This document shows positions 260-9,464 of a stretch of DNA of 9,464 bases, piece after piece. The notes under the pieces were generated by a model. That model was not told the origin of the DNA. It saw only the letters and a list, made by a program, of their open reading frames with translations, and did no database searches. Position numbers and translations under genes: made by a program. This DNA comes from Myxococcota bacterium (GTDB lineage Bacteria > Myxococcota_C > UBA6777). Location: contig JAKLKB010000181.1 of NCBI GenBank assembly GCA_023150835.1, positions 1 through 9,464 of the forward strand, read 5' to 3'. Numbering within the stretch: position 1 is the first letter of the stretch; each line of letters begins with the position of its first letter.

Positions 260-518
260 GGACGAACTCTGCGCCACCACCGATCTGGCCTTGGTCGTCG
301 GTTCGGAAACATTGGATCGTCGCGTCGCCTACTTCGTCACGCGCACACGACCCCCACGACAGCGGGATTTGAGCTTTGGTTTTTGCTCAGCCTGCTTTTG
401 CCTTTTGTACGCGGTGTCTGGAGCGGCTTTAGAGGTGGTGTGGTATCTTGCTGACATCTCTTGGTTTTTCAAAACAGAAACAGAATGTATGTCCCCCCAA
501 ATACGCTGTTTTTCAAAA

Positions 519-680
519 ACCAAGTTTCCTTTCCCACAAACCAAGTTTCCTTTCCCACAAACCAAGGTTCATCTCTCGTTGTCCAAGGTTCATCTCTCGT
601 TGTCCAAGGTTCATCTCTCGTTGTCCAAGGTTCATCTCTCGTTGTCCAAGGTTCATCTCTCGTTGTCTAAGGTTCTTTGT
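519..680. repeat. 21-bp tandem array of two unit types
   Basis: Two identical 21-bp units (519-539 and 540-560, containing accaagtttcctttccc) are followed directly by five identical 21-bp units of a second type (562-666, containing ggttcatctctcgttgt), then a decaying sixth unit. Both types share the ccaag core, so the second probably arose from the first by mutation followed by fresh amplification. There is no spacer sequence between units, so it is not CRISPR. No gene can be assigned to it. Confidence 0.9.
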
Positions 681-835
681 GAAAAGGAGCGAACCGATCG
701 AGCGGTGCGACGTTTTGCGTTCGAGAGCGATGCTCTGTTGTGGAGAGCGGCGGAGAAAAGCCGTCCTACGAAATCCGCCCGTTGTGTGATCGTAAAGAGG
801 TAAGGGCAGCCACAGGGGCCATTTGATCCAACTAA

Positions 836-904
836 TTCTCTTCGCCAACGCGGGGCCAAGGGAGTCGGGCTCCCTTGCGGGGTGTGGGGTTCCAACCCCA
901 CAAC
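836..904 (-). repeat. Dispersed multi-hairpin element, copy 3 (truncated, inverted)
   Basis: On the minus strand this matches the first half of the elements at 132-259 and 2781-2907. A perfect 8-bp stem GTGGGGTT/AACCCCAC lies at 884-901 and a perfect 8-bp stem CAAGGGAG/CTCCCTTG at 857-877. They are followed by the conserved gcgttggcgaagag (reverse complement of 836-850). Homology then stops, so the closing arm of the long-range stem is missing. The stem sequences differ from the other copies but keep pairing. Confidence 0.6.
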
Positions 905-1021
905 ACTTTTAAGATGCGTAAGTCCGGATGAGAAAGGAAAAACCTTTTTGCGCGATGGTTTGAGGCCACAAGGCGGATGACTTTGTGTGGCTTCCTCTAC
1001 AAAAAAGAGAGAATGATGGCG

Positions 1022-1495
1022 ATGAATCGCAAAAAGATACGGACGATCCGAGTGGATGGGATGGTGTTTTGTTGGCGTTATAACGAGCGTTGCTGGAGTT
1101 TGGTGTTGGAACCTCGGTGGAATTACCCGTATGTCCGTGTTGTGTTGCATTTTCCAACGCTCGCGTATTCTTCTCATCTGTGCAATCCGTTGTATCTGAC
1201 TCCGCGTTATGTTGCGCAATTGATCCGAGACGGTTTGGCGCTTGGATGGCCGAATTCGCGCAAGACGGGGCTTTATCGGGCGTGGTTTGCGTTGATGCAA
1301 GAGCGCTTGGTTGAGATCTCTGCGGAAGCTTGTGGATCGCGAGAACGAAAACGCAACAAAAACCAAGCATTACGTGCAGCGCGGGGTGCCTTTTTGCAGG
1401 TCTTGACTGCGCGTCAAACGGATATCCTCCGATGCAGCGAACAGATGGCGGAATGGTGGGAGGGAGTGCTTTTTGGCGCGTCGGAGGGTGGCTAA
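1022..1495 (+). CDS. Uncharacterised small protein, about 157 aa
   Basis: I do not recognise the family with certainty. The frame is open from 977. ATG codons at 977, 1013, 1016 and 1022 are all possible starts. I prefer 1022, because the purine-rich GAGAG at 1007-1011 lies about 10 nt before it and the protein-like part begins with NRKKIRTIRVDG. The sequence is rich in Trp, Tyr and Arg. It has a short strand-rich start (IRVDGMVFCWRYN) and later LTPRYVAQLIRDGLALGW, ending in a basic, helix-prone tail. The pattern 'basic start, W-R, TP-x2-V-x2-LI-x2-GL-x2-GW-P' resembles small uncharacterised bacterial proteins I have seen, but no function follows from that. No signal peptide or membrane segment is visible, so it is probably cytoplasmic. 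It converges on the tol-series, with only 6 bp between the two stop codons. Coding status is likely; function is unknown. Confidence 0.7.
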   Translation: MNRKKIRTIRVDGMVFCWRYNERCWSLVLEPRWNYPYVRVVLHFPTLAYSSHLCNPLYLTPRYVAQLIRDGLALGWPNSRKTGLYRAWFALMQERLVEISAEACGSRERKRNKNQALRAARGAFLQVLTARQTDILRCSEQMAEWWEGVLFGASEGG

Positions 1496-1501
1496 AAAAT
1501 A

Positions 1502-2374
1502 TCAGTCAAAGAGTGGAGCTTCGAGTTGGAGCTTCCAAGCTTGTAAGATGCCTTGGGACGGGCATTTGCACAATGCTTGAAGAAGGCGCTGTCGGGCTTC
1601 TTGGAGTGCGGCTTCTTGGGAGAGGAAGAAGGCTTTTTGCCAGAGGATCTCTTGTTCGACGGCGATGCTGGAGGGGGGAGCGTTGGGGCATGTATTGGCC
1701 CGAGCAGCGGCAGCTTTCACAGCGGCGGTGCTGGTATGGATGCCGCTTTGGTGGGAGATGCCGAGAGCAGCGGCCAAGGTTTCAAGGCTGCCGAGGTGCG
1801 CCCATGCGGCGAATCCGTAGGGGTGCTTTTCTTTGAGAGCGAGTCGGCGGTGTTGGCGTAAGAGTTCGGTGACAACAAGGCGTTCGTTGTCGTAGGTTTG
1901 GAGTTCGAGGCTACCATTGATCCACATACGTTTGCGTTCGAGAAGCTGCCACGCGAGGACGGGAGGCGGGCGATCTTGGGCTTTTTCTTGTTGGAGTGCG
2001 CGGATCGCGCAGTCATAAGCGAAGCTGTGGGCTTGCTTGACGGAGGCGGTCTCAAGGAGCGTCCAAAGATTGACGCTGCGGACCTCTACGCCGCAGACGT
2101 GAAGGGGTGGGGGCTTTGATGCCGAAACAGTAGGGTACACAGACAGAGCGGTGGTTCGATCGATGTGATGTGAAGAAGGAGCGGTGGTTCGATCGATGTG
2201 ATGTGAAGAAGGAGCGATAGGTCGATCGATGGGATGTGAAGAAGGAGCGATAGGTCGATCGATGGGATGTGAAGGGGGGGCGGTGGGTCGATCGTTCGGT
2301 TGCACGGGGAAGCTCCTGCGGGTGGGAGTAGCCGTTTGGGGGCGCGGTTTTTTAGGATGGAGACTTTTTCGCAA
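1502..2374 (-). CDS. Unrecognised helical protein with 11-residue Pro-rich repeats
   Basis: The ORF is 290 codons from a TTG at 2374, with no clear Shine-Dalgarno site before it, so the N-terminus is uncertain. Residues 1-85 are low complexity: four to five copies of an 11-residue unit (SHPIDRPIAPS and variants) encoded by the 33-bp array at 2146-2300. From about residue 90 the composition looks like a real folded protein: LHVCGVEVRSVNLWTLLE, then helices rich in Ala, Leu, Gln and Glu, ending in AALQEARQRLLQALCKC, which could be TPR-like. It is the last gene of the minus-strand series, 34 bp after the preceding stop codon, and probably belongs to the same transcript. The cpoB/ybgF gene, which encodes a TPR periplasmic protein, usually lies after pal. 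This gene is close to that place, but no signal peptide is visible and I cannot claim homology. The true start may lie near residue 85-95. Confidence 0.55.
   Translation of the reverse strand: MRKSLHPKKPRPQTATPTRRSFPVQPNDRPTAPPSHPIDRPIAPSSHPIDRPIAPSSHHIDRTTAPSSHHIDRTTALSVYPTVSASKPPPLHVCGVEVRSVNLWTLLETASVKQAHSFAYDCAIRALQQEKAQDRPPPVLAWQLLERKRMWINGSLELQTYDNERLVVTELLRQHRRLALKEKHPYGFAAWAHLGSLETLAAALGISHQSGIHTSTAAVKAAAARANTCPNAPPSSIAVEQEILWQKAFFLSQEAALQEARQRLLQALCKCPSQGILQAWKLQLEAPLFD
2146..2300. repeat. 33-bp tandem array inside a coding region
   Basis: Four full units lie at 2146-2178, 2179-2211, 2212-2244 and 2245-2277, with a degraded fifth to about 2300. Units 1-2 and units 3-4 form two near-identical pairs that differ at a few positions (gcggtggttcgatcgatg versus gcgataggtcgatcgatg). 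This shows successive duplication. Each unit contains the palindrome GATCGATC. On the minus strand it encodes an 11-residue peptide repeat in the 290-aa protein, and the unit length keeps the frame. Confidence 0.9.
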
Positions 2375-2408
2375 AGGTCAAGCCGCGCCGAATCCTCAAG
2401 AATCGGGA

Positions 2409-3362
2409 TCAGTTGGGGACATCGCAACGAGCAAGGCAAGTCGAAAAAGCGTTGGTTTGTGGGGAAGGTATCGCAGGAGAAAAGCATAACGCGGCTTGGG
2501 CGGGGAGCGTCTCGCACAAAGGCCGAAGGGTGCGGAGTGTTTGCTCGAAGTTTGCGGTGCGTGTCGAAAAGATATTGGTGCAAGCGCTAAAGCAGGGTTC
2601 GCTGGTTGCACAAGAAGTCTTGCACGCGGTCTCTTCGTCGTCGAGCTTTTTTCGCATATTTTTTTCGAGGATGGCCAGATCACGGCGGCAGTGTTGGATG
2701 CGTGTAAAGGCGGCGAGTAGACACGCGATCTTTTTGTTTTTGAGTTTTGTTTTGTCCGATGGATGGGGGTTTGTTGTGTTTGTGGGGCGCGGCCCCACAC
2801 CCCGCAAGGGGTCGCGGCCCCCTTGACCCCGTGTTGGCGAAGAGAGCAGAGGTTTTTCAAACCGACGGTTCTGTCGCTTGAGTGGGCGCGAACACGGGGG
2901 TTTTTGGTTTACTTCGCCGCTTCGGGCTTTGTTGTTTTGGATTGTTTTGCGATGTGGTGCTTTGTTTTCGGAAGTGTCGGTGTATCCGTTTTTGGCGGCG
3001 CATCGAAGCACACAACAAACAGCGGTAAATTGAGCGGTAGAGAGTCGGACGTGTGGGGCGGGCGGGGGTGTGGTGGGGATGTTGTGGGGATTTTGGAGAG
3101 AGGATGAGCGGGGAGCGCGGATATAGGAGAGGTTTCGGAGAGAGGATGGGCGCGGAACGCGGATATAGGAGAGGTTTCGGAGAGAGGATGGGCGCGGAAC
3201 GCGGATATAGGAGAGGTTTCGGAGAGAGGATGGGCGTGTGGTTTGCGCGGAAGCAAGGGGAACATGGAAAGAGAACAAACAGAGCGAACAGAAGAGGCCG
3301 AAGTGTCGGGGGGAGAGGTTGAAGTATCTAAGGAAGAGGCCGAAGCGTCGGAGAGATATCAT
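2409..3362 (-). CDS. Predicted secreted cysteine-rich protein, coupled to pal
   Basis: The ATG at 3362-3360 overlaps the pal stop codon (ATGA arrangement), which suggests translational coupling to pal. The 317-aa product starts with a signal peptide: basic residues, the hydrophobic stretch FGLFCSLCLFSF, and a likely signal peptidase I site after ASA near residue 39. Residues about 42-85 are three 14-residue repeats (PRPSSLRNLSYIRV) encoded by the 42-bp array at 3095-3236. A low-complexity middle follows; part of it is antisense to the hairpin element at 2781-2907. The last 110 residues look like a genuine domain: helical, with ten cysteines spaced for disulfides (including CKTSC, CFSAC, CLARC). 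An exported disulfide-bonded partner of the Tol-Pal machine is an inference. I do not recognise the family. The middle may be an insertion of repeat DNA that happened to keep the frame. Confidence 0.6.
   Translation of the reverse strand: MISLRRFGLFLRYFNLSPRHFGLFCSLCLFSFHVPLASAQTTRPSSLRNLSYIRVPRPSSLRNLSYIRVPRPSSLRNLSYIRAPRSSSLQNPHNIPTTPPPAPHVRLSTAQFTAVCCVLRCAAKNGYTDTSENKAPHRKTIQNNKARSGEVNQKPPCSRPLKRQNRRFEKPLLSSPTRGQGGRDPLRGVGPRPTNTTNPHPSDKTKLKNKKIACLLAAFTRIQHCRRDLAILEKNMRKKLDDEETACKTSCATSEPCFSACTNIFSTRTANFEQTLRTLRPLCETLPAQAALCFSPAIPSPQTNAFSTCLARCDVPN
2781..2907 (+). repeat. Dispersed multi-hairpin element, copy 2 (full length)
   Basis: This is homologous to 132-259. It has a perfect 7-bp stem GTGGGGC/GCCCCAC (2782-2788 with 2792-2798), a perfect 7-bp stem CAAGGGG/CCCCTTG (2805-2811 with 2819-2825) and a perfect 9-bp long-range stem CCCCGTGTT/AACACGGGG (2827-2835 with 2891-2899), followed by a T5 stretch. 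Inside the long-range arms a CGACG/TGTCG hairpin replaces the GACA/TGTC of copy 1. This copy lies antisense within the open frame of the cysteine-rich protein, so it is either an in-frame insertion or marks a break in that gene. Confidence 0.65.
3095..3236. repeat. 42-bp tandem array inside a coding region
   Basis: Three full units lie at 3095-3136, 3137-3178 and 3179-3220, with a partial fourth to 3236. Units 2 and 3 are identical; unit 1 has a few substitutions. On the minus strand each unit encodes 14 residues of the secreted protein, directly after its signal peptide, without shifting the frame. Confidence 0.92.
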
Positions 3363-4090
3363 TGCCCGATCTTGAACTCCGCACGGCGGTTTTTGTTGTG
3401 GGCTTCAGCGGTCATGCCGGGATCTGCGGGGCGTTGGTGGCCGTAAGAGATGGTGCTTAGCTGTGAAGAAGAGACCCCAAGTTTTTCGAGGTATTTTTTG
3501 ACCGCGATGGCTCGGCGTTCACCGAGGGCGAGGTTGTAATCGATGCTACCGCGTTGATCGCAATGTCCTTCGATCTGGATGCGTGCGTTGGGGCGTTGCT
3601 TGATCCATTCGGCGTGGCGTTGAAGGATATCGCGGTTGTTGCCTTCGAGGGTGTATTGATTGAAGCCGAAGTAGACGGGTTCAAGGCTTTGTCGGTTGTC
3701 GGCGGTGGGGTTCTCGTTGGCGGTGATCAGGGTGGGCGGTGGGGTTTGTTTGACGGTGTTGTCGGGCTTGGGTTTGAGGCATTTTTCTTTGTTGAGATCG
3801 GACTCTTCGCGGGCTTTGTCGGCGAGTTTGCGTGCGGCATCAAAGGCGACTTTGGCTTCTTCAAACTTGCCTTCGTCCATGAGCTTGTTGGCTTCTGCCA
3901 TCATCTTTTCGGCGGACTGGAGTTCTTCTTTGGCGCACTTGTCGGCTTGGGCTTGTCGAGCGCGTTTGAGGGCTTCGAGAGCGTCTTGATAAGAGCGTGT
4001 GGGTGGTTTTTTGGGGCATCCTGAGAGCAAGATCAAGAAGCCCAAAAGAAGGAACACGCTATAGCGTTGGGGAGCATATCGTTCAAACAT
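3359..4090 (-). CDS. pal: Pal, peptidoglycan-associated outer-membrane lipoprotein
   Basis: Pal anchors the outer membrane to peptidoglycan and docks with TolB. The 243-aa precursor has a lipoprotein signal peptide with lipobox LSGC, making Cys25 the lipidated residue. Residues about 34-100 form a charged, Ala-rich helical hairpin resembling the DUF4398-type helices placed before OmpA domains in some deltaproteobacterial Pal proteins. A Pro/Thr linker follows. The OmpA C-terminal domain spans about 137-243, with EGHCDQRGSIDYNLALGERR and the terminal NRRAEF. Asp178 and Arg193 have the spacing of the two residues that hold diaminopimelate in OmpA-family domains. It is longer than E. coli Pal (173 aa) because of the helical insert, which carries Cys52 and Cys104 at its ends. 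AGGA lies 7 nt before the ATG. It follows tolB by 79 bp and overlaps the next gene by 4 bp. Confidence 0.95.
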   Translation of the reverse strand: MFERYAPQRYSVFLLLGFLILLSGCPKKPPTRSYQDALEALKRARQAQADKCAKEELQSAEKMMAEANKLMDEGKFEEAKVAFDAARKLADKAREESDLNKEKCLKPKPDNTVKQTPPPTLITANENPTADNRQSLEPVYFGFNQYTLEGNNRDILQRHAEWIKQRPNARIQIEGHCDQRGSIDYNLALGERRAIAVKKYLEKLGVSSSQLSTISYGHQRPADPGMTAEAHNKNRRAEFKIGQ

Positions 4091-4103
4091 ACGAGCATCC
4101 TTT

Positions 4104-4145
4104 TTCGGGTGGATCGTCCCTGTCTTCGGGCGGATCGTCCCAGCC
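4104..4145. repeat. Imperfect 21-bp duplication in the tolB-pal spacer
   Basis: Two adjacent 21-bp units (4104-4124 and 4125-4145) share ttcggg(t/c)ggatcgtccc. They make up half of the 79-bp spacer and end just before the Shine-Dalgarno region of pal. No stable hairpin between the units is evident. Confidence 0.75.
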
Positions 4146-4169
4146 TGATGGTTCGCGAAGGGCGAAGGT

Positions 4170-5507
4170 TTAGTCTTTGGAGAGGCGCGGAGACCAGCTT
4201 GGCGTGAGGTATTGTCCGGGTTGGAAGGTGATCTGCCGCTGGTGTTTGCCTTCGTGGGTCATGATAAACAGTTTGGCGACGCCGTTTCGGGTGGAGACAA
4301 AGATGATATTGCGCCCGTTTGGAGACCATGCAGCTTCGATATTGCTGCCTTGGTTTTGGGTGAGCCGTTTGACTTGCCCGTCGGTGGGCGAGACGAGGAA
4401 GAGATCGAAGACATTGCGCTCATCGCGTCCTGTGAAAAGAATCCAGTCACCGCGAGGGGACCATTTGGGGGCTTGGTTGTAGTTGCCTTGCATGGAGACG
4501 CGCCGAGCGCCCGAGCCATCGACATTCATCACAAAGATCTGAGGAGATGCAAAGCGGGTGGATACGAAGGTGATCTGTTTGCCATCGGGGGACCAAGAGG
4601 GCGAAAGATTGCGTTCGCCCCACTTGGCTTGGGTGAGTTGTTGAAGTCCTGAACCATCGGCATTGACGATGTATATGTTCATGTTATCGGTGCCGCGTGA
4701 GGCGCTAAAGGCGATGCGTTGGCTGTCGGGAGACCACGTTGCGCCTGTATTCAGGCCCTGAAAGGAAGAGATCTTTTGGGCTTTGCCTGTGTTGATATCG
4801 TGGACAAAGATATCGGGATTGCGTTCTTTCCAAGAGGTATAAGCGATGTACCGACCGTTGGGAGACCATGCAGGAAGCGCGTTAATCGAGCCGTTGTTGG
4901 TGAGGCGCTGCATGGCTTGTCCATCGATATCCATCAGCCAGACTTCTTGTTTGCCTCGGTTGTTGCGGATGAACGAGACTTTGGAGGCAAAGATGCCGGG
5001 TTCACCGGTCATAAACTTATAGAGATGATCGGCAAAGAGGTGAGTGTACCAGCGGACTTGGCTATCGTTGGAGGCGATGTAGTCTTGTTGGAGGGCGAGT
5101 TTTTGCGTGCCGACTTCGTAAAAACGAAACTGGAGGCGGTAGCTTGAGCCGATCGCCATGACGTTGCCTTTGAGGATGCCTTCGGCCCCGACGCTTTTCC
5201 ACGGTTCAAAGTCAAAACTGTTTGGGTCAAAGCCATCGCGGGGAGCGCGTTCGAGGTAGGATGCAGGAGAAAGGACGCGAAAGGCTCCGCAGAGATCGAG
5301 GCTTTTGCGCAGGATGGCGACGGTTTTTGCGGCGGTGCGACCATCGCCTTTGAAGTCGGGTACAGCGATGGGATAGCGTTTTAGGCTGAGATCGCCGAGC
5401 TTGACTTTGAGGCGTTGGGCTTGGGCGGGCTGCACAAAAGAGATGGCGAAGAACACCCACAAGGCCGAAAAAAGATAGCGGTAAAAACATAGAAAAAAAC
5501 GAGACAT
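4170..5507 (-). CDS. tolB: TolB, Tol-Pal system beta-propeller protein
   Basis: TolB is the periplasmic component that links TolA in the inner membrane to Pal in the outer membrane. The 445-aa precursor matches the normal length of the family (about 430). It has a signal peptide of about 30 residues ending AQA, then the N-terminal domain beginning QRLKVKLGDLSLKRYPIAVP with the DFKGDG segment (about 31-175). The propeller carries six WSP motifs near residues 214, 258, 305, 349, 394 and 437, several as WSP(D/N)G. NADGSG, MNVDGSG and RLTQNQGSNIEAAWSP are characteristic TolB blade sequences. A strong AAGGAGG precedes the ATG with 4 nt between. It lies 79 bp before pal and 308 bp after a second, longer tolB paralogue. 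Of the two copies, this is the canonical one. Confidence 0.96.
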   Translation of the reverse strand: MSRFFLCFYRYLFSALWVFFAISFVQPAQAQRLKVKLGDLSLKRYPIAVPDFKGDGRTAAKTVAILRKSLDLCGAFRVLSPASYLERAPRDGFDPNSFDFEPWKSVGAEGILKGNVMAIGSSYRLQFRFYEVGTQKLALQQDYIASNDSQVRWYTHLFADHLYKFMTGEPGIFASKVSFIRNNRGKQEVWLMDIDGQAMQRLTNNGSINALPAWSPNGRYIAYTSWKERNPDIFVHDINTGKAQKISSFQGLNTGATWSPDSQRIAFSASRGTDNMNIYIVNADGSGLQQLTQAKWGERNLSPSWSPDGKQITFVSTRFASPQIFVMNVDGSGARRVSMQGNYNQAPKWSPRGDWILFTGRDERNVFDLFLVSPTDGQVKRLTQNQGSNIEAAWSPNGRNIIFVSTRNGVAKLFIMTHEGKHQRQITFQPGQYLTPSWSPRLSKD

Positions 5508-5815
5508 AGACCCTCCTTGTCGAATGGAACGTTGCTTTGCGTCGAGGCCGTCTGCCAGAAAGAGAACGCGAACGAGGGCATTTTATTCATCTGGGGCGAT
5601 TTGGCGAGGGCGTGTACACATCGTCTTGGGTATCGTAGGACTCGCAGCGCGTGAGCGTTCTATATCGTAGGACTTGCAGCGCATGAGCGTTCTCTCGGCC
5701 TTGTTGGGGCAGTCGTGGGGATATCGTCAAATGGAGCGGTGCGTTTCTTGTGCGAGCGCGGCCTAGTCGGTGGAGTTCAGCGCGAAGCACCGACGGGATG
5801 GACGCTTCTCTCGTG
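5508..5815. other. 308-bp spacer between the two tolB genes, with a 32-bp duplication
   Basis: No gene is supported here. Two 32-bp units (5631-5662 and 5663-5694) share tatcgtaggac(t/c)... and gagcgttct and differ at a few positions. A cggccttgttgggg motif near 5697 recurs as ggggccttgttggggg at about 5819-5834, inside the 3' end of the upstream tolB paralogue. This points to an older duplication of about 120 bp across the stop codon. The last bases before 5507 carry the tolB ribosome-binding site. I see no clear promoter or terminator. Confidence 0.65.
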
Positions 5816-7600
5816 TTATCGGGGCCTTGTTGGGGGAGTGGGCGAAGAAGATCCCGAGGTTTTGAGGGGCTGGGTGCTTGGAGGGAGAGTGCGCAACGAA
5901 AGGCGTTTGCGCTCGGTGGGAGCGGAGATATCAGTACGTGGAGGGAGAGGTAGTGCGGGTTGAGGAGAGAGGGGAGCGGTGGTGGGGGAGTTCTTTTGTG
6001 GTAGCGCGGGATCTCGGGTGGGTTGTTCGGGGCCTTGCTCGTCTTTGGACTCGGGGAGTTCTTGGAGCGGGGGGCCTTCGAGCATACGCACGCGGCGGTA
6101 ATAGCTACGCCCTGCCGCTCCGTCGGGAAGGTATTGTTGGTTGATGATCGGCGACCATGCGGGGCTTTCGACATCTCCTTTGATCTTGAGGAAAGGCTGT
6201 TGCTCGGAGCCGTCGGCGTTCATGATGTAGAGCTTTCGTGGGCCGCTGCGTGTCGAGATAAACAGAATAAAGCGACCATCGGGGGACCAACACGCCTCGA
6301 AGTTCCGCCCTTGGTTTTGTGTCAGTCGGCGATATTCGTGCGAGGTTTTTCCGTGTTCATCGGTGCTTAATTGGATCACAAAAAGATCATATTTGAGGAA
6401 TTCATCGCGTGCGGTAAAGAGGATCTCGGAGGCTTTGGGAGACCACTGTGGCTCTTGGTTGTATTCGCCTTTGTAGGTCAGACGGACTTGATTGGAGCCG
6501 TCTACGTTCATCACAAAGATGTGCGGGGTTGCGAAGCGTTCGGAGACAAAGGCGATGCGTTTTCCGTCGGGTGACCATGTGGGGCTGATGTTGATTCCCC
6601 ATGTTTTGGTGAGGCGTCGAAAGTTGTTGCCGCTTGGGTCGCTGGCGAAGATATCGGAGCCTGTTTTGGTGCTGATGGAAAAGGCGAGCCGTTGGCCGCT
6701 TGGGGCGTAGGTTCCGCCTGTGTAGTTTCCGCGAAGGCGGCTGATCCGAGAAAGTTGTTCGGTGGCGAGGTCCAGTTTGTACAGGTAGGGGCGGCCTTCA
6801 AGGAAGGAAGTGAAGGTGAGGTAGCGTCCTGTGGGAGACCAGTTGGGGAGGATATTGATGGCACCGTTGCTGATCACGCGGCGGCGGTTTTTTCCGTCAA
6901 AGTCCATCACCCAGATATCTTTGCCGCCTTTGGGGTTGGGTTTGACGTAAGCGATGTAGCTGGTAAAGATGCCTTCTTGGCCCGTTAATTTTTTGTAGAT
7001 ATCATTGCAGACTTGGTGCAAAAACCAGCGCAGTCGGTCTCTCGTCACGACACGATTGACGCGGATCTCTTGGCGTGTGGTGTCGACGTCGTAGTAGCGG
7101 AACATCACGCGCAGGTGTTTTTCATCTTGGGCGCGCAGGGCGATCTTGATCAGGCCGTTGGCTGCGATGTTTTGCCATGTCACAAACGAAAAGGTGCCGA
7201 GTTCGATACCGTTCTCGCCTTCTTTTTCCAAAAAGGTTTTCCTTTCCAAGACGCGGATCATGCCTACCAGACGGCGAAAGTTGTCATCAAGCTGTGTTTC
7301 GATATCGCGCTGGATATCTTCTTTGGGGTGGCCTTTGATCGGACCCTGCCAGAGGACGGGGGCGATCGCCAAGTGAAAGGCTGTGGTGCCAACGCCCGAC
7401 AAGACCACGCGGAAGCGCGGCTTTTTTTGACAACGCCGACGCAAGCAAAGCTCGTCTTTGTTGCAATCGCGGTGGGCGATACAGCGCTTGGGACGGGCGC
7501 TAGAGGCGGTGTTGGGAGGCCAGCAAAACAAAGACAGCAGCCCGAAAAAAACAGAGAACCCAAACAACAAAGCGGTTCGTTGAGGGATGGCTTTCGTCAT
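5816..7600 (-). CDS. TolB paralogue with Cys-rich N-terminus and Pro-rich tail
   Basis: This is a 594-aa TolB-family protein, about 150 residues longer than typical TolB. It has a hydrophobic export signal at residues 11-27. Cys26 is not in a good lipobox, so signal peptidase I cleavage near TASSA (31-35) is likelier. Four cysteines at 40, 46, 52 and 57 (CIAHRDCNKDELCLRRRC) resemble the short disulfide motif frequent in myxobacterial secreted proteins. The TolB N-terminal domain spans about 62-215. The propeller spans about 216-490, with six WSP-type motifs near 254, 299 (YAP), 342, 386, 438 and 482. Residues 505-594 are a Pro/Ser/Thr-rich, probably disordered tail that ends in repeat-like DNA. 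AGGAG lies 6 nt before the ATG. It precedes the canonical tolB in the same direction and may be an alternative or accessory TolB. The family is clear; the specific role is unknown. Confidence 0.9.
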   Translation of the reverse strand: MTKAIPQRTALLFGFSVFFGLLSLFCWPPNTASSARPKRCIAHRDCNKDELCLRRRCQKKPRFRVVLSGVGTTAFHLAIAPVLWQGPIKGHPKEDIQRDIETQLDDNFRRLVGMIRVLERKTFLEKEGENGIELGTFSFVTWQNIAANGLIKIALRAQDEKHLRVMFRYYDVDTTRQEIRVNRVVTRDRLRWFLHQVCNDIYKKLTGQEGIFTSYIAYVKPNPKGGKDIWVMDFDGKNRRRVISNGAINILPNWSPTGRYLTFTSFLEGRPYLYKLDLATEQLSRISRLRGNYTGGTYAPSGQRLAFSISTKTGSDIFASDPSGNNFRRLTKTWGINISPTWSPDGKRIAFVSERFATPHIFVMNVDGSNQVRLTYKGEYNQEPQWSPKASEILFTARDEFLKYDLFVIQLSTDEHGKTSHEYRRLTQNQGRNFEACWSPDGRFILFISTRSGPRKLYIMNADGSEQQPFLKIKGDVESPAWSPIINQQYLPDGAAGRSYYRRVRMLEGPPLQELPESKDEQGPEQPTRDPALPQKNSPTTAPLSPQPALPLPPRTDISAPTERKRLSLRTLPPSTQPLKTSGSSSPTPPTRPR

Positions 7601-7732
7601 CAGAAACTCCTGTGGCAGATGCGATGATCCTGCCCGTCTGTGCGCTTTTTCCGAAGGTCTGCGATCCGAGCGGCAGGCTCGATGCGTTGAGCGGGCATCG
7701 TTTGGAGATCACAAACACCGCATCGTTTGGTT

Positions 7733-8302
7733 CTATTGCTTATCATGCTGTGCGGGCGGCTTCAAAAAACAGGCTTCTTTTGCTGCGGGGAGGAGCGTCG
7801 GGAGCGAGGAATACGGAGCAACATGGTGTGTCGTTCGTGGTTTTTTTGATCGCAGTGTTTCGGGTCGCGTTTGCGGAGCAACATGGTGTGTCGTTCGTGG
7901 TTTTTTTGATCGCAGTGTTTCGGGTCGCGTTTGCGGAGCAACATGGTGTGTCGTTCGTGGTTTTTTTGATCGCAGTGTTTCGGGTCGCGTTTGTGTGTTC
8001 GAGAGGCCCGAGTGGTTTTGCGTTTCTGCGGCCATCGGGATCTCCACATCGATCCAAACCAATCCAACGAAGCCTTCTTCCTCAATCCACGGTTGCAACT
8101 GGTTTTGGGTTCTGGGCTGTGGCAGCGCGTCACCGTCTTCGAGCATCCAAAGCAGGTGCTCTTGCAAGGCTTCCGCAGCCATCTCAACCGCTTCTTCTTG
8201 TGTTTCTCCAGCGCTAAAACAACCGAGTACGTCGGGGAATTGGACGCCAAAGTCGCTGGTGGGGTCTTTGTGTAGGATGGCTGCGTATGTGTAAGTGGTC
8301 AC
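7733..8302 (-). CDS. HicB-like protein with C-terminal 20-residue tandem repeats
   Basis: The start is GTG at 8302-8300, supported by AAGGAGG (8313-8307) 4 nt upstream. Residues 1-90 match the HicB-like fold (partly degraded RNase H-like): YAAILHKDPTSDFGVQFPDV, LGCFSAGETQEEAVEMAAEA, then LEDGDALPQPR and a strand LVWIDVEIP. HicB proteins are antitoxins that bind HicA mRNA interferase and usually carry a C-terminal ribbon-helix-helix or HTH domain for operator binding. Here that domain is absent. It is replaced by three perfect 20-residue units (TRPETLRSKKPRTTHHVAPQ), very basic, from the 60-bp array, plus 26 tail residues. No HicA-like ORF lies on either side: 154 bp upstream and 132 bp downstream are too short and show no such frame. 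Solitary HicB-like proteins are known. The gene lies inside the tol series in the same direction. The HicB domain is confident; antitoxin activity is not. Confidence 0.82.
   Translation of the reverse strand: MTTYTYAAILHKDPTSDFGVQFPDVLGCFSAGETQEEAVEMAAEALQEHLLWMLEDGDALPQPRTQNQLQPWIEEEGFVGLVWIDVEIPMAAETQNHSGLSNTQTRPETLRSKKPRTTHHVAPQTRPETLRSKKPRTTHHVAPQTRPETLRSKKPRTTHHVAPYSSLPTLLPAAKEACFLKPPAQHDKQ
7814..7993. repeat. Three perfect 60-bp tandem units inside the HicB-like gene
   Basis: Units lie at 7814-7873, 7874-7933 and 7934-7993 and are identical base for base, so the amplification is recent or kept uniform. Each begins cggagcaacatggtgtgtcg and contains a T7 tract. On the minus strand the unit encodes exactly 20 residues and ends within the open frame. 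Confidence 0.96.
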
Positions 8303-8306
8303 CGTG

Positions 8307-8313
8307 CCTCCTT
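8307..8313 (-). promoter_or_regulatory. Shine-Dalgarno site that fixes the GTG start of the HicB-like gene
   Basis: AAGGAGG on the minus strand lies 4 nt before the GTG at 8302. No ATG is available nearby in this frame, so this site decides the start. Confidence 0.7.
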
Positions 8314-8370
8314 ATGTGAGCTTCACGCGTTTGCCTTCTTCTATGATATGCGAGCCATACACGGCCTTTG

Positions 8371-8444
8371 GCGGGGTGGGGGGGGCTTTCCTCGGCTTAA
8401 CCTAACGCCTATGGGACAGCGCCCCACAACATCAAACCCCATAG
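8371..8444 (-). repeat. Hairpin repeat, left copy of an inverted pair flanking tolA
   Basis: The reverse complement matches 9315-9377. The shared core of 21 identical bases (8395-8415) contains taacctaacgcctatggg. It is flanked by a G-run block (8371-8385) that matches a C-run block at 9367-9377. CTATGGG (8409-8415) can pair with CCCATAG (8438-8444). The repeat fills the gap between the tolA-like stop codon and the HicB-like gene. Confidence 0.75.
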
Positions 8445-8456
8445 AAGTTATCTCGA

Positions 8457-9176
8457 TCACCAGCTAATCTCGATGCCGTTTTTCACGAGCTTCCAGACGC
8501 TGTCGGGCGGTCGGGGGAAGGGGGCAGCGCGCCGAATACAGGCCAGCAAGGCGCTGTCAAATCGGTTGTTTCCGCTGGTTTGCGTGACGTCCGCTTTCAC
8601 AAGACGACCTTCGCGGCTGATCTGGATCGCGATCTGGATACGACTCTTGTAAGACGCGAGTTGGGCGCTGAAAAGATCGGGGAGTTTTTGGCGATCGATG
8701 GCGCGGCGGATCTCCAGTCCGTACATACTGCCTGCTCGCGCAAGGCGTGGATCGTCGGTGGTTCCGATGTCTGAGCCGCTTTCGACTCCGGGCGGTTTGT
8801 CGTCATCCCCTCGAACATCGGTCTCTTCGTTCGAGCGTTGTTCGAGCCGTTTGAGTGCGCGTTTCATTAAGTCATCATCGTTGACACGGCGACGGCGTGG
8901 TTGGGGCGGTGGGTTGGGGGTTGGGTCGCGTCGTACGATCACGCGGCGACGTTGTTCGGGCTGAGGACGAGGTTTGTAGATGCGGGGGAGCAGATGGCGC
9001 GGTCGGGGCTGCCCTTTGCGCAAAAGTACCGCTGTTTGGATCGCTTCGACTTTCAGGCGCGGCCCTTGGCTGGCATTGGCCGATGCGTACATATAAAACA
9101 CCGCCGCAAGGTGCAAAAACACCGAGCTTCCCACCCCCACCAAAAACAACCGATCGAATCGTCTGTGATCGAACAT
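8457..9176 (-). CDS. tolA: TolA/TonB-family energy-transducing protein
   Basis: This is an inner-membrane protein that would transmit energy from a TolQR/ExbBD-type motor to the periplasm; next to tolB and pal, TolA is the likelier role. The frame opens at an ATG at 9191, but the ATG at 9176 is preferred: GGAG lies 9 nt before it, while the first ATG has AAAGG directly abutting it. Numbered from 9191 (244 aa), there is a single N-terminal membrane segment (about 15-38) containing the S-x3-H motif (Ser23, His27) used by TonB and TolA to engage the motor. A Pro/Arg-rich periplasmic linker follows (about 60-105), then a charged helical stretch, and a TonB C-terminal domain at about 180-244 (IQIAIQISREGRLVKADVTQ, SGNNRFDSALL, PFPRPP). 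It is shorter than E. coli TolA (421 aa), as is common in deltaproteobacteria. tolQ and tolR are not in the window. Confidence 0.85.
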   Translation of the reverse strand: MFDHRRFDRLFLVGVGSSVFLHLAAVFYMYASANASQGPRLKVEAIQTAVLLRKGQPRPRHLLPRIYKPRPQPEQRRRVIVRRDPTPNPPPQPRRRRVNDDDLMKRALKRLEQRSNEETDVRGDDDKPPGVESGSDIGTTDDPRLARAGSMYGLEIRRAIDRQKLPDLFSAQLASYKSRIQIAIQISREGRLVKADVTQTSGNNRFDSALLACIRRAAPFPRPPDSVWKLVKNGIEISW

Positions 9177-9185
9177 CGTTTTCTG

Positions 9186-9189
9186 CTCC
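9186..9189 (-). promoter_or_regulatory. Shine-Dalgarno site favouring the second ATG of the tolA-like gene
   Basis: GGAG on the minus strand lies 9 nt upstream of the ATG at 9176-9174. The alternative ATG at 9191-9189 has AAAGG immediately adjacent, with no spacing. The N-terminal difference is five residues before the membrane segment. Confidence 0.5.
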
Positions 9190-9314
9190 ATCCTTTGTTT
9201 TCTCGGTTGGACGGGGCTTTTGACCCTTTCCTTCCCTTCAACATCACACCATCAAGCTGAACCCATTGTGGGCAAAGATCAAGAAACGCGCAACTCCTTC
9301 CTTTTGATCTATCT

Positions 9315-9377
9315 CCTATGGTCGTGTGGGGTTCCACCCCATAGGCGTTAGGTTAAGCGCTTGTTGGCCCCCCCACC
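9315..9377 (+). repeat. Hairpin repeat, right copy of an inverted pair flanking tolA
   Basis: It shares a 21-base perfect core (9338-9358, containing cccataggcgttaggttaag) with the reverse complement of 8395-8415, and a C-run block with the reverse complement of 8371-8385. CCTATGG (9315-9321) pairs with CCATAGG (9339-9345), and the enclosed TGGGGTTCCACCCCA forms an inner hairpin. Confidence 0.75.
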
Positions 9378-9447
9378 CCAGCCCTCCCCCGTGAACAGGG
9401 GAGGGAGCGAAAGTCGGAAGCAGCGGGGATTTTGTTTTTTCATGACA

Positions 9448-9463
9448 CACGCTGTATGCACGA
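9448..9463. repeat. 16-bp repeat shared with the left edge of the window
   Basis: This is the same cacgctgtatgcacga in the same orientation as at 3-18. It is preceded at some distance by a G/C-rich hairpin (9382-9405), which places both copies in similar intergenic surroundings. Confidence 0.5.
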
Positions 9464-9464
9464 C

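Follow-up and report, generated by a model that had tools for sequence, protein, structure and literature searches.

Bacterial surface proteins show variation in repeat number, i.e., in-frame changes of length in low-complexity linkers. The arrays described here resemble these repeats in that the length of linkers varies in frame, and differ from them in that they extend beyond surface proteins and that a phenotype is not part of the case. That the units of prokaryotic repeats tend to be divisible by three (3n) is already published: in a survey of 261 prokaryotes most long-unit satellites were 3n and often encoded amino acid repeats (PMC6749651). The medians of that survey, 0–3 satellites per Mb under its own definition, are not comparable with the ~284 arrays per Mb counted here by TRF at a score of at least 50, the criteria being different.

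The stretch of DNA analysed here, referred to as the window, is 9,464 bp long and constitutes the whole of contig 133 in a 239-contig, 7.56-Mb assembly of a Myxococcota bacterium. Its tandem arrays very probably exemplify a load of long-unit repeats that extends throughout the genome and is shaped by slippage or recombination and, within genes, by selection on the reading frame, so that what appeared as a local oddity becomes a measured genome-wide pattern.

The window and its arrays

The closest named relative is the MAG “Myxococcota bacterium isolate KLAP109”, which belongs to the same genus, has a TolB 97% identical (the “sister species” below) and carries the matching locus on its contig L051; two members of the family, G003 and G004, were also compared, with an 18 kb stretch of the locus from each. 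On the minus strand of the window the order is TonB/TolA-like, HicB-like, TolB-like, TolB, Pal, ORF C and ORF B, with ORF A on the plus strand (Table 1); ORFs A, B and C had no match in Pfam or NCBIfam profile searches. The order TonB-TolB2-TolB-Pal is retained in G003 and G004, whose TonB-TolB2 interval is without HicB, and on their locus stretches TRF found no array in the former and one 15-bp array in the latter. The two TolB-type propellers that stand in tandem in the window (4170–7600) are kept in the sister as well as in G003 and G004.

Table 1. Genes, tandem arrays and a lineage-specific segment of the window (positions in bp)
Feature	Position	Strand	Copies	Remarks
21-bp array, type 1	517-570		2.6	AAACCAAGTTTCCTTTCCCAC; no convincing gene; TRF
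21-bp array, type 2	562-675		5.4	CCAAGGTTCATCTCTCGTTGT; no convincing gene; TRF
ORF B core, hypothetical protein	1502-2140	-		codon-usage call; conserved in sister
33-bp array	2146-2294		4.5	TRF
ORF C, hypothetical secreted protein	2409-3362	-		ATG overlapping pal stop by 4 bp
42-bp array	3091-3236	-	3.5	encodes RPSSLRNLSYIRVP; TRF
Degenerate 21-bp run	3291-3353			66% match; 5′ end of ORF C; TRF
pal (OmpA/Pal lipoprotein with DUF4398)	3359-4090	-		TIGR02802 over cut-off; no array
Imperfect 21-bp duplication	about 4107-4148		two	tolB-pal spacer; read by eye, absent from TRF output
tolB	4170-5507	-		TIGR02800 over cut-off; no array
32-bp duplication	5631-5693		2.0	spacer; TRF
Second TolB-like protein	5816-7600	-		profile match; no array
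HicB-like ORF	7733-8302	-		PF15919, residues 6-92
60-bp array	7814-7993	-	3.0	100% identical; TRF
Segment present here, absent in sister	7814-8456			~643 bp; clean junction, AT at both ends
TonB/TolA-like protein	8457-9191	-		profile match; no array

The arrays are real and lie far above chance: in 200 versions of the window shuffled by dinucleotides, TRF returned in all 6 rows with a score of at least 50, the top score being 61, and the main arrays score 101 to 360. The arrays of 21 (two types), 33, 42 and 60 bp listed in the first-pass annotation are thus borne out; the only unit not divisible by three, that of 32 bp, does lie in a spacer, and the identity of the units is as had been claimed, since the full 60-bp units, the five full units of the type 2 21-bp array and two of the three units of the 42-bp array are identical, as are two of the four 33-bp units. 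The “21-bp spacer duplication” also mentioned there is most likely the imperfect repeat between tolB and pal. That five of the six units (21, 21, 33, 42 and 60 bp, with 32 bp as the exception) are 3n is what would be expected in a genome where this applies to 77% of the arrays.

Every array having an alignable counterpart in the sister species is shorter or missing there. The sister has approximately one unit at the locus of the 33-bp array and a single unit in the tolB-pal spacer, and lacks the spacer segment of ~130 bp within which the 32-bp duplication is found; at the type 2 21-bp array it aligns only with the array end, i.e., with about one (the last) unit, and the type 1 array is unalignable.

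Arrays inside open reading frames

According to the first-pass annotation three of the arrays are inside an ORF, which is mechanically correct for those of 33, 42 and 60 bp, but translation is likely only for the 42-bp array. ORF C, in which this array is found, is open in both species, with 317 residues here and 255 (62 fewer) in the sister, and the overlap between its ATG and the pal stop is present in both. The overlap, together with a signal-peptide-like N-terminus ending in ASAQ or TSAQ, upstream of the array, makes translation through the repeats likely; it is unproven because the third-position codon bias is strong only past residue 200 and a conserved GTG occurs at residue 189. Judging from these sequence features, the 42-bp array probably encodes a linker within a small secreted protein.

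The 33-bp array is placed directly upstream of the GTG at position 2140, a start codon located 212 codons from the stop, conserved in both species and picked by the gene caller. The 190-codon core of ORF B is 96% identical between the sister species; the longer frame shows no conservation at its 5′ end. Since a conserved start is available downstream of the array, the 3n length of the latter may need no selection, and the repeats are more likely to represent leader sequence than coding sequence.

In the HicB-like ORF the PF15919 domain is followed by the 60-bp array, which forms a C-terminal tail, and then by codons placed in DNA that corresponds to an intergenic region of the sister. The array and most of this ORF are carried by the ~643-bp segment, whose junction reads GAGGAAT/CACCAGC in the sister vs GAGGAAT...GAT/CACCAGC here and which G001, G003 and G004 lack at the corresponding locus. 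The ORF itself was not found in the four genomes G001–G004, and the sole match considered as a possible family relative of its product turned out to be a non-coding flank. The 60-bp array is therefore not part of a translated gene shared with relatives, from which both ORF and segment are missing, and, being the tail of an ORF on such a segment, needs no selection to account for its frame-preserving length. The domain covers only positions 1–84 of the 123 of the profile and no HicA partner was identified adjoining the ORF, which may encode an antitoxin that has decayed or is an orphan.

Hence, the 33- and 60-bp arrays are probably not under reading-frame selection, and the continuity of an open frame does not by itself make an array “coding”. 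Apart from the 33- and 42-bp arrays and from the 60-bp array on its lineage-specific HicB-like segment, the remaining arrays of the window would be spacer DNA.

Frame bias and copy-number change across the genome

In a sample of 80 stretches, amounting to 1.38 Mb of the 7.56 Mb, TRF called 392 non-overlapping arrays with a score of at least 50. The comparison of unit lengths inside and outside genes, which had been put forward in the first-pass annotation, reveals a strong bias: 200 of 207 arrays are 3n inside called genes vs 91 of 160 outside (odds ratio 21.7, p = 7e-22), the outside class being contaminated by missed genes because the calls come from a simple codon-usage script, which missed both ORF C and the HicB-like ORF. 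At a match of at least 90%, all 96 arrays inside called genes are 3n. Outside, the 3n fraction drops from 12/18 where both flanks are coding-like to 30/61 where neither is, so that part of the excess is due to missed genes; the arrays without coding-like flanks still lean towards 3n (30/61, p = 0.0075), and 21 of the 47 near-perfect ones among them are 3n. The idea that non-coding units follow the helical repeat, in multiples of 10.5 bp, was considered and discarded, the mean distance of 2.48 vs ~2.6 expected giving no signal; likewise, the search for an RNA family beneath the arrays produced a chance snoRNA match below cut-off and no tRNA. The proposal that purifying selection on frame explains the coding arrays is consequently upheld at the level of the genome (200/207 vs 91/160) but probably does not apply to two of the three supposedly coding arrays of the window.

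Copy number is labile between the sister species. Both flanks are anchored in the sister for 43 arrays, of which 34 do not have the same length there; of the 19 gene arrays that differ, it is in the sister that 7 are longer, even if the anchored arrays, having been picked in the present genome, are biased towards being longer here. The copy numbers are therefore not fixed, so that, given the frame bias above, neither of the two outcomes named as refutations in the first-pass annotation is borne out. The difference in length is itself 3n in 16 of 19 cases in genes and in 6 of 13 outside; in some cases, such as two 23-bp spacer arrays, it corresponds to exactly one unit. The arrays resemble VNTRs in their head-to-tail copies above chance and in copy numbers that differ between related genomes, in this case of different species.

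These data are consistent with a mechanism in which units of ~9 to 80 bp would arise and change in copy number through replication slippage or unequal recombination, processes that would act alike in genes and spacers, with purifying selection on frame leaving almost only 3n units within translated genes. The density of arrays is greater outside genes (4.3 per 10 kb) than inside (2.05 per 10 kb). The 96 near-perfect gene arrays are found in 78 genes and distributed along the length of the proteins, and the peptides encoded by the repeats show an excess of P, T, N, S and E and a deficit of W, C, F and L; statistically, by bias and composition, the units retained as 3n are mostly in Pro/Thr/Ser/Glu-rich linkers, which are probably disordered.

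Arrays in core genes and the alternatives

Ten array-bearing genes were scanned and include those for an H+-pyrophosphatase, a histidine kinase, MnmE, RNase E/G, a Clp ATPase and an ABC1 kinase-like protein. The mnmE gene (L005:6079-7755, G000 contig 3) contains a 48-bp tandem array of ~4 copies, which in both members of the genus immediately follows the switch II motif DSAGLR, in one loop, and is shorter in the sister; MnmE of G003 and G004 is without the repeat. A far longer unit, of 324 bp and repeated ~5.9 times, is found at L056:10394-12952 inside a predicted protein of 852 residues having only weak Pfam matches.

Could the genus possess an unusual property of repair or replication that makes long-unit repeats arise more often? 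In favor of this possibility, the density of near-perfect arrays here is about fourfold that of two family members (1.64 and 1.29 per 10 kb in the two members of the genus vs 0.38 and 0.42 in G003 and G004, the relatives' samples being small, 276 kb, and not random). On the other hand, all four genomes have a mutS1 over cut-off, and three of the four, including the present one, a mutL over cut-off, the sister's mutL match being a fragment in a draft assembly; loss of mismatch repair is ruled out by the presence of mutS and mutL, and weaker purging or demography could yield the same densities. An unusual property of this kind is accordingly unlikely, and it is equally doubtful that a genus-specific mutational process seeds long-unit repeats genome-wide, with in-frame expansions being tolerated even in core enzymes such as MnmE. 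If such a process existed, the proteome would vary in linker length among close relatives; the high density of near-perfect repeats in the genus relative to the family in any event offers a place to study how in-frame insertions in core proteins originate and are tolerated.

Less probable still is the possibility that the arrays, or the numbers of units in them, were created when short metagenomic reads were assembled. That repeats give rise to assembly errors is well established (PMC6868369) and represents the main caveat on the copy numbers given here, which, like the 3 × 60 bp, could be assembly products since both assemblies are fragmented and the sister is a declared MAG; furthermore, the window is a complete contig bounded by dispersed repeats. 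However, the imperfect units of the 33- and 42-bp arrays bear distinct substitutions that an assembler is unlikely to produce, the near-absolute 3n rule in genes would not come from assembly error, and the same class of arrays is found independently in the sister.

Finally, it is most improbable that array length near Tol-Pal is an adaptive switch varying envelope proteins, as do surface-protein repeats in pathogens, for although the six non-overlapping arrays in 9.5 kb place the window in the top ~6% of equal-sized stretches and ORF C combines a signal-peptide-like start with a variable linker, TolB, TolB-like, Pal and TonB are free of arrays, denser stretches occur elsewhere (e.g., L014 and L066; counts reach 11), cytoplasmic enzymes also have arrays and translation is doubtful for two of the three ORF arrays. 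For the same reasons, the earlier suggestion that the arrays could serve to vary the length of envelope-linked proteins is not supported; the same kind of repeat being spread through the whole genome, including cytoplasmic core enzymes, no special envelope mechanism is involved.

The genome-wide repeat load favored here is composed of tandem arrays; the window also contains dispersed repeats. Those at its two ends (1–135 and 9324–9464) have 34 and 37 copies in the 1.38-Mb sample and are probably the reason why the assembly broke at the contig ends. A short element of ~46 bp (762–818) has 134 copies in the sample, with 0 in called genes. Another of ~128 bp, without match in Rfam, is located at 2767–2911, again at 135–258 and, inverted, at 837–889; it has 156 copies in the sample, with 0 in called genes, and 742 first-look candidates in a search of the whole genome, and one of its copies lies in frame within ORF C, as it does in the sister.
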